64,000 nucleotides of DNA, from NCBI RefSeq assembly GCF_001709345.1, contig NZ_MDTQ01000001.1:1711108-1775107 (forward strand). The letters run 5' to 3'. Positions 2,295 through 7,020 of the stretch are shown here, in pieces. This DNA is from Terasakiispira papahanaumokuakeensis (lineage in GTDB: Bacteria; Pseudomonadota; Gammaproteobacteria; Pseudomonadales; Halomonadaceae). Below the pieces are notes generated by a model. The model made no database searches. It was not told the origin of the DNA and worked only from the letters and a program-made list of their open reading frames with translations. A program made the translations under genes and the position numbers. The stretch's first letter is position 1. The number at the start of each line of letters is the position of its first letter.

Positions 2295-4313
2295 TCACAA
2301 AGCCAAACGCATGTTCTCCAGCTGCTGCAAACGATCGCGTAGACGAGCCGCTTCCTCAAACTCTAGATTTTTAGCCGCTTCATACATTTTTTTCTGTAAC
2401 GCTGAAATCTCTTTTTCCAGTACTTCAGGAGATTCAGGTAAGCCCGAAAGATCGTATTCCGCCGCGGCTTCGGCAACTTTTTTCTGATGCTTACGGCTTC
2501 TTGAGCCTGGGGCTTGGGCTCCTTCCAAAATATCAGCAACCGATTTATGAATTGTAACAGGTGAAATATTATGTTCAGCATTAAATCCCAGCTGCTTGTC
2601 ACGACGACGCTGAGTCTCATCCATAGCTCTTTGCATCGATCCTGTCACTTTATCAGCATACAAAATTGCGCGACCTTCGGCGTTACGCGCTGCCCGTCCA
2701 ATCGTTTGAATCAAAGAGCGTTCTGAACGGAGAAACCCCTCTTTATCCGCATCCAAAATAGCAACAAGAGAAACTTCTGGCATATCCAGCCCTTCACGCA
2801 GCAAATTGATCCCAACGAGGACATCAAAAACACCCAAACGTAAGTCCCTAATAATTTCGACACGCTCTACCGTATCAATATCAGAATGCAGATAGCGGAC
2901 CTGAACACCGTGTTCAGCTAAATAATCTGTCAGATCTTCAGCCATGCGCTTGGTCAACGTTGTCACCAGCACGCGCTCTTCTCTGGCTGCAACCTGGTGG
3001 ATCTCCCCTAATAAATCATCGACTTGATGTGTTGCTGGGCGAATCTCAATCAAAGGATCAACAAGGCCTGTAGGACGAACAACTTGCTCGACAACCTGGC
3101 CAGCATGCTCATCCTCATAAGCACCCGGGGTTGCAGAGACGAAGATCATTTGGGGCGCTAATTGCTCCCACTCCTCAAACTTTAATGGCCGATTATCTAG
3201 CGCAGAAGGAAGGCGGAAACCATACTCCACAAGCGTTTCTTTCCGAGATCGGTCTCCCCGGTACATGGCCCCAATTTGAGGAACAGTGACATGAGACTCA
3301 TCGATAAATAGCAATGCATTATCAGGTAGATAATCAAAAAATGTCGGCGGGGCTTCCCCAGGAGAACGTCCAGATAGGTAACGAGAGTAGTTCTCTACGC
3401 CGTTACAATAACCTAACTCTAGCATCATCTCGATGTCATAGAGTGTGCGTTGCTCCAAGCGTTGAGCCTCTACTAAGCGATCATGCTTGCGTAACCATTC
3501 AAGCCGCTCTCGAAGCTCTTCTTTAATATGCTCGACGGCATTCAGCAAAGTATCACGTGGCGTTACATAGTGACTTTTCGGATAAACGGTATAACGAGGT
3601 ACTTTGTTTAACACCTCGCCCGTCAATGGATCAAACAGAGAAAGCTGTTCAATCTCATCATCGAACATTTCAATACGCAGTGCTTCTTGCTCGGACTCTG
3701 CTGGGAAGATATCCACGACATCCCCTCGCACCCGAAAAGTCGCTCGCCGAAAGTCCATATCATTGCGGGTATATTGCAGCTCAGCTAGGCGGCGCAGCAA
3801 TTGGCGTTGATCAATATGATCACCACGGTCGAGATGCAGCACCATTTTCAAATAAGAAGCAGGATCCCCAAGGCCATAAATAGATGAAACCGTCGCAACG
3901 ATAATGGCATCATTACGCTCTAATAATGCTTTCGTTGCGGAAAGCCGCATTTGCTCAATGTGATCATTGATTGAGGCATCTTTCTCAATGAAAGTATCAC
4001 TCGAAGGCACATAAGCTTCCGGCTGATAATAATCATAATATGAAACAAAATACTCAACCGCATTGGCCGGGAAGAACTGCTTGAATTCACCGTACAATTG
4101 CGCAGCCAGCGTTTTATTGTGTGCCAATACAAGCGTTGGCCGCTGTTGCGACTGAATCACATTGGCCATGGTGAACGTCTTACCTGACCCGGTCACACCC
4201 AACAACGTCTGATGCGCTAATCCACTCTGTAATCCATCCACCAACTGATTAATCGCTTTGGGCTGATCCCCAGCGGGGGAATAGGAAGAGCTCAGTTGGA
4301 AAGCATCAGTCAT
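2295..4313 (-). CDS. uvrB: Excinuclease ABC subunit B
   Basis: UvrB is the damage-verifying helicase-like subunit of the UvrABC nucleotide excision repair complex. It receives DNA from UvrA and then recruits UvrC for incision. The 672-aa product has Walker [11 protein letters not shown] near residue 40, the beta-hairpin region [12 protein letters not shown], the helicase motifs DESHVT and ATPGAYE, motif [11 protein letters not shown], and a C-terminal UVR coiled-coil ([20 protein letters not shown]) that binds UvrC. ATG at 4313 is preferred over an in-frame TTG at 4325, because GAGG lies directly before the TTG. A LexA-box sequence lies 70-85 bases upstream, so SOS induction is likely. Confidence 0.97.
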
Positions 4314-4382
4314 TATATTCTTCAACCTCGCATCATGCTGAACGAATCAAATAAGGCACCACCATACCCCACTCCGACATAA

Positions 4383-4398
4383 CTGTATATAATCACAG
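4383..4398 (-). promoter_or_regulatory. LexA (SOS) box upstream of uvrB
   Basis: CTGT-ATATAATC-ACAG matches the gammaproteobacterial LexA consensus CTGT-N8-ACAG exactly in its conserved arms. It overlaps the last codons and stop of the upstream ugd-like gene and lies about 70 bases before the uvrB start. uvrB is a classical SOS gene, which supports the call. Confidence 0.8.
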
Positions 4399-5697
4399 CT
4401 CACGAACCTGTCGACCAACACCACAGTAAACAAACCCTTGATCGGCAACGAATGCGGGGTCGTAGATATTACGACCATCAAAAATAACGGCCTGTCGCAT
4501 CGCCGTTTTAAGACGGGTAAAGTCTGGACTCCAATAAGCCTTCCATTCAGTCACAATCAATAAGGCATCAGCATCAATAGCAGCATTGTAGGGATCCTCA
4601 TGGTAAGTCAGACCTTCCTGCACCCCGAACTCATCCTGCAATGCGGGCAAAGCTTCAGGATCATGAACCTGAACGTGGCAGCCTTGCGCAATTAAGGCCT
4701 CAATCAGCCGAATTGAAGGCGCATTATCAATGCGAGAACTCCCCGGTTTAAATGCTGCCCCCCACAAGGCGACGGTCCGTCCTTTGAGGTCCGCATTGTA
4801 AAACTGCCACAGCTTGCGAAAGAGTACTTCTTTCTGCTGTTCGTTGATATCAAGGACTTGGGCTAAAAGTGTCGACCCAACGCCTTTATCTTCAAGGGTT
4901 GATACCAGATTCATGACATCGCGAGAGAAATTACGTCCGCCAAAGCCGCAACCAGGATAGAGGTATTCATGACCAATACGCCGATCGCCCCCCATCCCTT
5001 GACGCACACTTTCGATATCGACATTGAGGCTATCAGCTAAATTGGCCATATCATTCATAAAGCTCAAACGCGTCGCCAACATGCCGGTGATGGCCAACTT
5101 AGTAAACTCAGCCTCGCGCGTCCCCATCACCCGAATACGGTCTTCACGCCGGTTAAAAGGACGGAGTAATTCTCGAATCAGTCGCTCAGCCCAAGGTGAC
5201 TCGGCGCCTAATAAGACTTGATTCGGCCGAGTGAATCCTTTTAAAGCAGCCCCTTCTTGCAACAAATCAGGCAATGCCACCACTTCTCGCGGCCAATCAT
5301 TGGAAGGATGCTGAATTAAGCCATGTAGCTGAGCAGTGGTACCCACAGGAAAAGTGCTCTGATTCACGACCAATAAAGCACCCACTGTTTGCTCTGCAAT
5401 AGCCTGAACCAATGTCATCGCATCGTTTTGCTGGTCTGGCGGCAATGCCACGAAAATCACACGAGGAGAATGAGTATTCGCTGAAACAGACTCACCAGGC
5501 AAAACGAGTCGTCCCGAGCGCCGCTGCTCTTGGATCAGCAACGCCAAACCTGGTTCTCGATCGATGGCTTCTCCATCGTTCAAAGCGCGCTCTAACGCTT
5601 GGGAATTCAAGTGCAACGTGACATTGTGCCCGGTGGATGCCATACAAGCTGCGGTGACTAGCGCACATAAGCCTTGGCCATAAATATCCAGGTTCAT
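4393..5697 (-). CDS. UDP-glucose 6-dehydrogenase-like protein lacking the catalytic Cys
   Basis: This is a 434-aa member of the UDP-glucose/GDP-mannose dehydrogenase family, whose active members oxidise UDP-glucose to UDP-glucuronate with NAD. The overall domain order is kept: N-terminal Rossmann fold, central dimer helix (LATRLSFMNDMANLADSLN) and C-terminal UDP-binding domain (WGAAFKPGSSRIDNAPS). Key positions differ. The catalytic-loop motif normally GGSCFPKD reads GGRNFSRD, so the nucleophilic Cys is Asn256. The Asn four residues after the conserved Lys200 is Thr204. NPEFL reads LPDLL. The dinucleotide motif GxGYVG reads GQGLCA. The ATG overlaps the galU stop (ATGA), so the two are translationally coupled. 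It is probably a pseudoenzyme or an enzyme with changed chemistry. Confidence 0.85.
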   Translation of the reverse strand: MNLDIYGQGLCALVTAACMASTGHNVTLHLNSQALERALNDGEAIDREPGLALLIQEQRRSGRLVLPGESVSANTHSPRVIFVALPPDQQNDAMTLVQAIAEQTVGALLVVNQSTFPVGTTAQLHGLIQHPSNDWPREVVALPDLLQEGAALKGFTRPNQVLLGAESPWAERLIRELLRPFNRREDRIRVMGTREAEFTKLAITGMLATRLSFMNDMANLADSLNVDIESVRQGMGGDRRIGHEYLYPGCGFGGRNFSRDVMNLVSTLEDKGVGSTLLAQVLDINEQQKEVLFRKLWQFYNADLKGRTVALWGAAFKPGSSRIDNAPSIRLIEALIAQGCHVQVHDPEALPALQDEFGVQEGLTYHEDPYNAAIDADALLIVTEWKAYWSPDFTRLKTAMRQAVIFDGRNIYDPAFVADQGFVYCGVGRQVREL

Positions 5698-6581
5698 GAC
5701 AGAGCCTCAACCTGTTGACGCAGGAGCGCTTCGAACGCCTTCCCCATCATCGGATGCTTAACCGCATAGTTCAAAGTGGCCTGCAAATATCCCAACTTGT
5801 TACCGCAGTCATAAGTAACGCCCTGCATACGATACGCTTCCAACGTGTGGGTCCGTAAAAGCGCATCAAGTGCATCGGTTAATTGAATTTCGTTACCCGC
5901 ACCGGGCTTGGTTTGAGCCAATAACTCAAAGATCTCAGGAGGTAAAATATAGCGTCCGACTACGGATAAATTTGAGGGGGCTTGATCCGGGGAGGGCTTT
6001 TCAACCAAACCAACCATTGGACAGCTCTGCCCTGGCTCGGGTGAATCTTTTAAATCCGCAATACCATACTGATCAACATTTTGATCCGGTACGGCTTCAA
6101 CCATAATCTGTGCATGGCCTGTTGACTCATAACGCTCAAGCATACAACGTAAATCTTGAGCCGTATCGGCCGCTTGATCCACCAAAACATCAGGTAAAAG
6201 CACTGCGAAAGGACTCTCTCCAATGACCTCTCGAGCACATAAAACCGCATGCCCAAGCCCCAACGCTTGACCCTGTCGAACAGCAATCACACGCACATCA
6301 TCAGGAATAATCTGGCGTACAGTATTCAATAGTTCTATTTTGCCGCGACGCTCGAGCTCACTCTCAAGCTCATAATTGACATCAAAATGATCTTCAATTG
6401 CGCGCTTCGCATTATGCGTAACCAACACAATCTCACGAATACCGGCCGCAACCGCTTCCTCAACAACGTACTGAATCACAGGCTTATCGACGACCGTCAA
6501 CATCTCTTTTGGGATCGCCTTGCTGGCAGGTAAAAAACGGGTTCCAAGACCAGCAACAGGCAAAACGGCTTTCGTCAGCAT
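5694..6581 (-). CDS. galU: UTP--glucose-1-phosphate uridylyltransferase
   Basis: GalU makes UDP-glucose from UTP and glucose-1-phosphate for lipopolysaccharide, capsule and osmolyte synthesis. The product opens with KAVLPVAGLGTRFLPASKAIPKEML in two overlapping motifs: the nucleotide-binding GLGTRFLPA and the catalytic SKAIPKEML. It later has VEKPSPDQAPSNL and GNEIQLTDA, as in bacterial GalU, and the 295-aa length is typical. The start at 6581 follows GGAG by 6 bases; an in-frame upstream ATG at 6602 lacks a site. It is the first gene of a two-gene unit with the ugd-like gene, overlapping it by 4 bases. Confidence 0.96.
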   Translation of the reverse strand: MLTKAVLPVAGLGTRFLPASKAIPKEMLTVVDKPVIQYVVEEAVAAGIREIVLVTHNAKRAIEDHFDVNYELESELERRGKIELLNTVRQIIPDDVRVIAVRQGQALGLGHAVLCAREVIGESPFAVLLPDVLVDQAADTAQDLRCMLERYESTGHAQIMVEAVPDQNVDQYGIADLKDSPEPGQSCPMVGLVEKPSPDQAPSNLSVVGRYILPPEIFELLAQTKPGAGNEIQLTDALDALLRTHTLEAYRMQGVTYDCGNKLGYLQATLNYAVKHPMMGKAFEALLRQQVEALS

Positions 6582-7020
6582 GATTTCTCCATCAGATGTC
6601 ATCAGGATATTGATGCAAAGCGCACCTTAATAGTTAAATTCAATTATGCGGGAGCGCAGTATGCCATGTTCCCAGCCCCTCAACACTACTCAATCAAACA
6701 TTCAGCCAAACATTCAATTACAATGCTCAATTACAACACTCAATCACGACACAGCTCACCAGCATGAAGGACAGTATCTTACGGAAGACTGAATCGGATC
6801 ACACGTTCAGGCGTTGAGAAAGCCCACTACACTCGAGATTAAAAGCAAAGATTGCATCTCGTTACGCCTTTATGCATTGGCGCAATTGATTTCAGTGCTC
6901 ACTCAATGCTTAGAATAGCGTTTATGTAGCACTCACTCGCATGGCGCCATACTGCGACAATGCGTACACTAAGCTTTGACCCCTAACCCTTTTCGCTATC
7001 CACTCAGGGCGGAGCGGCAG
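6582..7020. other. 439-bp divergent gap between galU and cheV
   Basis: This gap must hold the promoters for galU (minus) and cheV (plus). I see no convincing sigma-70 or sigma-28 hexamer pair. It contains an imperfect tandem array at 6691-6752. Nothing else stands out and no small ORF with a good ribosome-binding site was seen. Confidence 0.6.
6691..6752. repeat. Five imperfect tandem units of 12-13 bp
   Basis: Units read CAATCAAACATT, CAGCCAAACATT, CAATTACAATGCT, CAATTACAACACT and CAATCACGACAC in direct succession. The similarity is partial but the period is regular. Confidence 0.7.

Follow-up and report, generated by a model that had tools for sequence, protein, structure and literature searches.

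The gene directly downstream of galU in the 64,000-nucleotide stretch of Terasakiispira papahanaumokuakeensis DNA analysed here (the window) encodes a UDP-glucose dehydrogenase (UGDH) homologue that has lost the catalytic cysteine. We refer to this cysteine-less (Cys-less) gene as Xugd. There is good support from the sequence that its product is not a UGDH, and the window protein belongs to what we propose as a distinct group, the Cys-less, galU-linked UGDH clade, as it lies on the corresponding branch and its gene neighbors galU. Our preferred reading, which we hold at a probability of roughly 60%, is that Xugd encodes a dead, NAD-free UGDH paralogue that would bind UDP-glucose or a closely related UDP-sugar and take part in UDP-glucose supply as a sensor or partner, with no catalysis of its own. 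From sequence, we infer the absence of activity, the UDP-sugar binding and the regulatory role alike. The features of the gene and its surroundings are listed in Table 1; reference sites such as Cys260, Lys204 and Arg244 follow the numbering of the S. pyogenes UGDH throughout, and residue roles are those given in the accessible text of Freas et al. (PMC4794789).

Table 1 Xugd, its diagnostic codons and its neighbors, by position in the window
Feature	Position	Strand	Remark
uvrB	2295..4325	-	next gene downstream of Xugd
Xugd, Cys-less UGDH homologue, 434 aa	4393..5697	-	ORF, Pfam and alignment to 2y0e
Asp324 codon	4726..4728	-	at the Arg327 position; residue alignment
Lys317 codon	4747..4749	-	equivalent of Lys320, UDP diphosphate contact, kept (role from the accessible text of PMC4794789)
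Former catalytic loop, residues 253-260 (GGRNFSRD)	4918..4941	-	
Asn256 codon	4930-4932	-	at the Cys260 position
Arg240 codon	4978..4980	-	equivalent of Arg244, intersubunit glucose contact (role from the accessible text of PMC4794789)
Thr204 codon	5086..5088	-	at the Asn208 position
Lys200 codon	5098..5100	-	equivalent of sugar-contact Lys204, kept
LPDLL, residues 142-146	5260..5274	-	NPEFL in UGDH; Glu141 replaced by Asp
Degenerate Rossmann motif, residues 7-12 (GQGLCA)	5662..5679	-	GxGxxG in UGDH
galU, UTP-glucose-1-phosphate uridylyltransferase	5694..6602	-	nucleotidyl transferase PF00483 match

The first-pass annotation had described a full-length, galU-coupled gene, and this is borne out by an intact frame with an ATG start, 434 codons and zero internal stops that overlaps the directly upstream galU by 4 nt. 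All three Pfam domains of the NDP-sugar dehydrogenase superfamily, PF03721, PF00984 and PF03720, scored above cut-off, which makes the protein a member of this superfamily. Translation and alignment to 2y0e confirmed that Asn replaces the catalytic Cys in the loop; the altered NAD motif and LPDLL in place of NPEFL were likewise found in the translation as first annotated. The Thr reported after Lys200 is present in the window protein, but does not hold as a family trait, as Asn is kept at this position in 87 of 160 Cys-less sequences. Within the Rossmann motif, Tyr10 is replaced by Leu and Gly12 by Ala, and the alignment further places Leu at Asp29, a gap at Thr83, Arg at Lys263 and Asp at Arg327, a residue that in UGDH forms a salt bridge with the NAD pyrophosphate (accessible text of PMC4794789). 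As the Thr83 column is also gapped in 6 of 39 Cys-containing controls, all of the short type, Lys263 and Arg327 weigh more than Thr83. Thus, Gly7 and Gly9 are kept and the other five NAD positions are lost. Since both glycines remain and the NAD-domain Pfam match exceeds its cut-off, the N-terminal domain of the window protein is less eroded than that of many relatives. The UDP-sugar contacts Lys204, Arg244, Gly257 and Lys320 are all retained, as are Lys200 and Asp260 (window numbering) of the old active site.

The second, canonical ugd that the first-pass annotation suggested looking for was found in the 4.05 Mb genome. Apart from Xugd, only one PF00984 protein (L001) is encoded there, and it is a short-type canonical Ugd of the S. 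pyogenes and E. coli kind that belongs to the same superfamily and shares 22% identity with the window protein. Unlike the latter, it has the loop GGYCLPKD with its Cys; Tyr10, Gly9, Gly12, Asp29, Lys263 and Arg327 are intact as well, and the Thr83 column is gapped, as in all six short-type rows. The two genes lie about 1.9 Mb apart. Among long-type enzymes, BceC of Burkholderia (2y0c, 2y0d and 2y0e) gave a full-length match to the window protein (E = 7.6e-94 to 2y0e), with about 39% identity in the structural alignment and the same three domains. In contrast to the BceC type, the window protein lacks Cys260, Tyr10, Gly12, Asp29, Thr83, Lys263 and Arg327.

The substitutions had been treated as those of a single gene; they instead characterize a family that includes the 'ugd' of the Acinetobacter baumannii K locus. 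From 216 UGDH-like ORFs, 200 distinct sequences were obtained, of which 199 were tabulated (at least 380 aa; one shorter sequence was left out), 160 without and 39 with the Cys. We collected 158 distinct Cys-less sequences of the window kind, the window's included (54 representatives in the tree), from Halomonadaceae, Alcanivorax, Halopseudomonas, Piscirickettsiaceae and Moraxellaceae. Within the taxonomic family of the window, 200 of 201 genomes matched at 1e-20 or better, and for 187 of them, that of the window included, the best E-value was at or below 1e-110; the loops were read in the best 30 loci and none had the Cys (30/30). Of 70 named loci taken from genome contigs, 68 carried a Cys-less copy, including Marinospirillum, Halopseudomonas and Alcanivorax types, Halomonas, Vreelandella and Sulfurivirga, and two, both Arenimonas, carried a normal copy only. 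At class level, 206 of 281 genomes matched, and the class and order searches added further families; in 20 of these 206 genomes, taken mostly from the top of the list, we read a Cys-less gene in 7 and a canonical gene in 14, a single genome being counted under both. A lone oddity of the window genome was ruled out by the 68 of 70 loci and the family-wide matches. A quick tree search on 79 representatives, with SH-aLRT support and without bootstrap, placed 54 of the 56 Cys-less representatives, the window row among them, on one branch with a support of 100.

Two Cys-less genes, L141:3004-4287 (G567) and L142:3001-4332 (G569), have the loops GGVGLPRD and GGSRFPRV, respectively, and fall among the canonical UGDHs in the tree; they are counted in the 160 sequences of the residue table and left out of the 158 of the linkage count. 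Because of this placement, and because no galU was present in their fetched stretches, they probably represent independent losses of the Cys. In a Moraxellaceae subgroup (family f2; L134, L135, L160-L164 and L166), the N-terminal domain has changed to the point that the match to the family profile starts no earlier than about residue 75-140; each of the eight rows read has Arg in place of Lys204 and Glu as the general base.

Across the family, the losses concentrate on the cofactor side. The absence of Cys260 defines the Cys-less set, and the aligned column is Cys in all 39 controls. The NAD and reaction positions are kept in only a few of the 160 Cys-less sequences: Gly9 in 5 (including the window protein), Tyr10 in 2, Gly12 in 4, Asp29 in 7, Thr83 in 0, Lys263 in 3 and Arg327 in 5. 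All six NAD positions tested are lost in 143 of 160, five of them in the window protein, and 38 of the 39 canonical sequences keep the five positions counted when Thr83 is left out. The positions that contact the UDP-sugar or the neighboring subunit or shape the loop (Glu201, Asn219, Arg244, Gly257, Gly258 and Asn287) are each kept in 160/160; Lys320 is kept in 154 and Lys204 in 150, and Lys204, Arg244, Gly257, Gly258 and Lys320 occur together in 149. Correspondingly, among the columns invariant in canonical long UGDHs, 9 are kept and 31 lost in the N-terminal domain compared to 41 kept and 15 lost in the C-terminal domain (Fisher p = 1.2e-6, with columns treated as independent), the C-terminal losses including the Cys loop and the Arg327 region. 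Neither of the two groups compared contained the eight degenerate Moraxellaceae rows, L141, L142, the six short-type ugd or L118_5618. Lys263 and Arg327 are both present in two Piscirickettsiaceae-like sequences (L105 and L110), which may reflect a step at which the loss of the NAD site was less advanced. The clade also has invariants of its own, namely Trp297 and Phe252 (weighted frequency 1.00), Arg294 and Gln338 (0.98 each) and Arg210 (0.97). Arg294 and Trp297 share one helix (276-299) in the AlphaFold model, and the two residues are candidates for a partner surface.

The AlphaFold model of the window protein reached a mean pLDDT of 86.2, with block means of 54-65 at 241-290, the stretch that holds the former catalytic loop. 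Foldseek assigned the UGDH fold (best hit 2y0e_A, E = 2.0e-35, TM 0.46). When aligned by VIA-align, the model gave a Z of 29.8 and an rmsd of 19.2 over 403 aligned residues to 2y0c_B, and a Z of 26.9 and an rmsd of 4.1 Å over 374 residues to the GDP-mannose dehydrogenase 1mfz_A, both with the stretch 241-290 weakly modelled. A canonical control model from the same rows, with the same weak stretch, gave a Z of 41.2 and an rmsd of 2.5 Å over 404 residues to 2y0c_B and an rmsd of 21.2 to 1mfz_A. As a mere hint from the models, the two halves of the window protein may be placed as in the domain-swapped GDP-mannose dehydrogenase (AlgD-like C-terminal exchange).

Since the protein has lost the NAD contacts and the nucleophile but shows a nearly invariant UDP-sugar pocket, dimer contact and loop, a UDP-sugar-binding reporter is the simplest reading. 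The first-pass annotation had also considered new chemistry. With the cofactor contacts lost, an NAD-dependent form of it is unlikely. As the old active-site Lys and Asp remain in the window protein, Xugd might instead encode an enzyme with NAD-independent UDP-sugar chemistry of the hydrolase, epimerase or mutase type. The retention of Lys204 (150/160), of the general base Asp264 (139/160) and of the substrate-side residues would agree with this. However, Asp264 is replaced in 21 of 160 sequences, by Glu, His, Asn, Thr, Gly, Ser or Val, and ten have Arg for Lys204, including the eight of the degenerate Moraxellaceae subgroup. The former Cys position is also variable (Asn 99, Ser 40, Gly 13, Thr 4, His 2, Arg 1 and Ala 1), unlike what a new catalytic residue would show, and we therefore regard such chemistry as unlikely.

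The gene neighborhood links the family to UDP-glucose synthesis, and many marine bacteria carry the Cys-less gene beside genes of this pathway. Linkage was counted only for loci with 2.7 kb on both sides, which left 86 Cys-less loci and 22 canonical controls. Within 2.7 kb of the Cys-less gene, galU was found in 79/86, pgi in 41/86 and either of the two in 82/86 loci. In the controls with the same flanks, from which the flank filter had excluded 11 canonical copies that share a fetched locus with a Cys-less copy, galU occurred in 0/22 and pgi in 1/22. The gene orders galU-Xugd-uvrB, galU-Xugd-pgi-pgm and galU-pgi-Xugd were seen, the identity of pgi and pgm being verified in L042; uvrB holds the same position in Marinospirillum-type loci (L033-L035) and is no general partner of the Cys-less gene. 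Four Vreelandella-type loci (L053-L055 and L059) carry the Cys-less gene without galU or pgi nearby, showing that a strict GalU partnership is not needed for retention of the gene. The 11 canonical copies in shared loci (11 of 39) are found in Alcanivorax-type L039, L043, L047, L102 and L133 and in Moraxellaceae L134, L153-L155, L164 and L165, and three of them lie less than 300 bp from galU. So, galU linkage marks the Cys-less gene, though canonical copies sometimes join the same cluster.

The idea of a GalU regulator or UDP-sugar sensor, raised in the first-pass annotation, fits both the kept UDP-sugar residues and this linkage. According to the reading we prefer, a dimer of the Xugd product would hold UDP-glucose, or a closely related UDP-sugar, where UGDH holds its substrate, without NAD, and would report on the UDP-sugar or hand it on with no conversion. 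It would act in the UDP-glucose supply branch formed by Pgi, Pgm, GalU and their users. Because the neighboring genes encode the proteins that make UDP-glucose (Pgi, Pgm and GalU), the target is likely to be GalU or the UDP-glucose pool; the Xugd product might, for example, modulate GalU or gate UDP-glucose into envelope polysaccharide. Known proteins resemble such a function in part. GalF, a catalytically poor GalU paralogue of enterobacteria, offers a parallel in that the Xugd product would act on UDP-glucose supply without catalysis, but GalF is a GalU homologue and the Xugd product a UGDH homologue. UgtP and OpgH are UDP-glucose-dependent regulators of cell size and also represent enzyme-derived UDP-glucose sensing, but are unrelated glycosyltransferases. 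If read correctly, Xugd provides a clean natural example of a two-substrate active site stripped of its cofactor half, with the sugar-nucleotide half left nearly invariant, and whether a dehydrogenase can have a role without NAD is a question that one purified protein could address directly.

In the genus g324, the gene order galU-Xugd-pgi-galE-pgm resembled the end of the Acinetobacter K locus. A tblastn search of a plasmid database matched, with 66% identity, three A. baumannii records as large as chromosomes (L201-L203). These have the order sugar transferase, galU, ugd, phosphoglucose isomerase, epimerase, phosphoglucomutase and L-lactate permease, which is the published order of K-locus region 3. 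The K-locus 'Ugd' (the region-3 'Ugd' of PMC3628348 and of the accessible text of PMC9676051) has the loop GGENFSHD in all three records, with Asn at the Cys position as in the window protein, and the Rossmann motif GTTLHA, and it falls on the Cys-less branch of the tree. It matches PF00984 and the UDP-binding PF03720 and, unlike the window protein, gave no match to the NAD-binding PF03721 at E 0.001. The A. baumannii ugd adjoins gpi, which overlaps it by 4 nt in the loci read, whereas the window gene has no pgi alongside and lies between galU and uvrB. The three records represent two distinct proteins, and what we state for A. baumannii rests on these together with a survey of genus g324, where 57 of 60 genomes matched and the 30 sequences fetched plus that of G600 (L149) all lacked the Cys. 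We call this genus Acinetobacter because the protein of one member (G697) is nearly identical to that of A. baumannii in the tree. Two of the three A. baumannii records were searched whole for PF00984, and each of these chromosomes encodes two such proteins, the K-locus 'Ugd' and one with the loop GGHCIGVD. The latter, tested in one of the chromosomes, scored above cut-off as a TviB-type UDP-GlcNAc dehydrogenase; no canonical UGDH was found in either.

These genomes bear on the possibility that the Xugd product pairs with canonical Ugd in mixed dimers and, as a subunit without catalysis of its own, regulates it. Such a role would be consistent with the intersubunit Arg244 kept in 160/160, with the canonical ugd in the window genome, with the presence of at least two PF00984 proteins in 95 of the 101 genomes that the family search covered, and with the Alcanivorax-type and Moraxellaceae loci shared by both kinds of gene. 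However, no canonical UGDH was found in either of the A. baumannii chromosomes searched, and in the draft genome G041 the single PF00984 match leaves space for nothing but the Cys-less gene; as a general role, mixed-dimer regulation is therefore disfavored. The distance between the two genes in the window genome and the rarity of canonical copies in well-flanked Cys-less loci (7 of 86) also speak against it, and we consider it improbable.

The K-locus gene further allows us to weigh whether Xugd, in line with its annotation, still encodes a UDP-glucose dehydrogenase whose active site has shifted. Homology to UGDH spans the full length, both the window protein and the A. baumannii K-locus protein exceed the cut-off of NCBIfam TIGR03026, and the K-locus papers name the latter Ugd. 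In their accessible text, region 3 (galU, ugd, gpi and pgm) is always present and its ugd is described as a UDP-glucose dehydrogenase, a maker of UDP-GlcA (PMC9676051, PMC3628348). Against this stand the missing Cys nucleophile, the missing thioester-hydrolysing Tyr10 and the lost NAD contacts. The D-GlcA capsule types are moreover listed with additional genes: the accessible text of PMC9676051 assigns D-GlcA to ugd2-ugd5 in 24 KL, and that of PMC11619341 places ugd4 in KL71, a type whose capsule contains D-GlcA. A retained UGDH activity thus appears very improbable. Among the phage-resistant A. baumannii mutants described in the accessible text of PMC10904470, one has an IS insertion at position 1,137 of ugd and others are affected in gpi and pgm. 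The ugd mutant suggests a role in capsule, with the reservation that the insertion may act by polarity on the overlapping gpi. We found no paper on a Cys-less K-locus Ugd in the open-access literature searched.

Extending the preferred reading, we tentatively propose, at slightly less than even odds, an ancient, so far unrecognised UDP-glucose sensor family that arose from UGDH by loss of the cofactor site and controls how UDP-glucose is allocated to envelope polysaccharide in several gammaproteobacterial families, and that includes the A. baumannii K-locus 'ugd', which would make no UDP-GlcA. If this is true, the 'ugd' that typing papers describe as an invariable part of the capsule locus in a major hospital pathogen is not a UDP-glucose dehydrogenase, predictions of GlcA-containing capsules from region-3 ugd would be wrong, and the extra ugd2-ugd5 in GlcA types would be explained.

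Selection was measured in relatives of Xugd outside the window's genus. Codon models gave an omega of 0.064 for 4 Marinospirillum-type, 0.082 for 8 Halopseudomonas-type and 0.058 for 33 Acinetobacter sequences, with 0.040 for the neighboring galU of 32 Acinetobacter loci as control. Pairwise NG86 medians were 0.076 (3 pairs), 0.167 (22 pairs) and 0.072 (67 pairs) for the same three groups and 0.060 (107 pairs) for Acinetobacter galU. The 30 Halomonas-type rows, for which only pairwise values were calculated, had a higher median of 0.205 (314 pairs, range 0.036-0.384), yet one far below one. The gene is thus under strong purifying selection in the groups measured by codon models. A value near one, which the first-pass annotation had named as the sign of plain decay, was thus not seen in these groups, and its maintained pseudoenzyme is supported by the intact ORF, the single old branch, the low omega of the three groups of relatives and the canonical ugd in the genome. 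A decaying pseudogene or annotation artefact, for which the lost catalytic residues and the strongly altered N-terminal domain of one subgroup might speak, is ruled out for practical purposes by the open frame in the window, the full-length frames in the relatives read, an omega of 0.058-0.082 and new clade-specific invariants such as Trp297 and Arg294.

Two minor observations concern database records. The three A. baumannii records NZ_CP077849.1, NZ_CP104448.1 and NZ_CP064203.1 (3.7-4.1 Mb) are filed as plasmids in PLSDB, and they look like chromosomes because they carry the K locus and a lactate permease gene. In a single-contig genome of the window's family, the profile match of G010:C1:2369482-2370588 stops at position 371 of 430, and this copy is possibly truncated or frameshifted.
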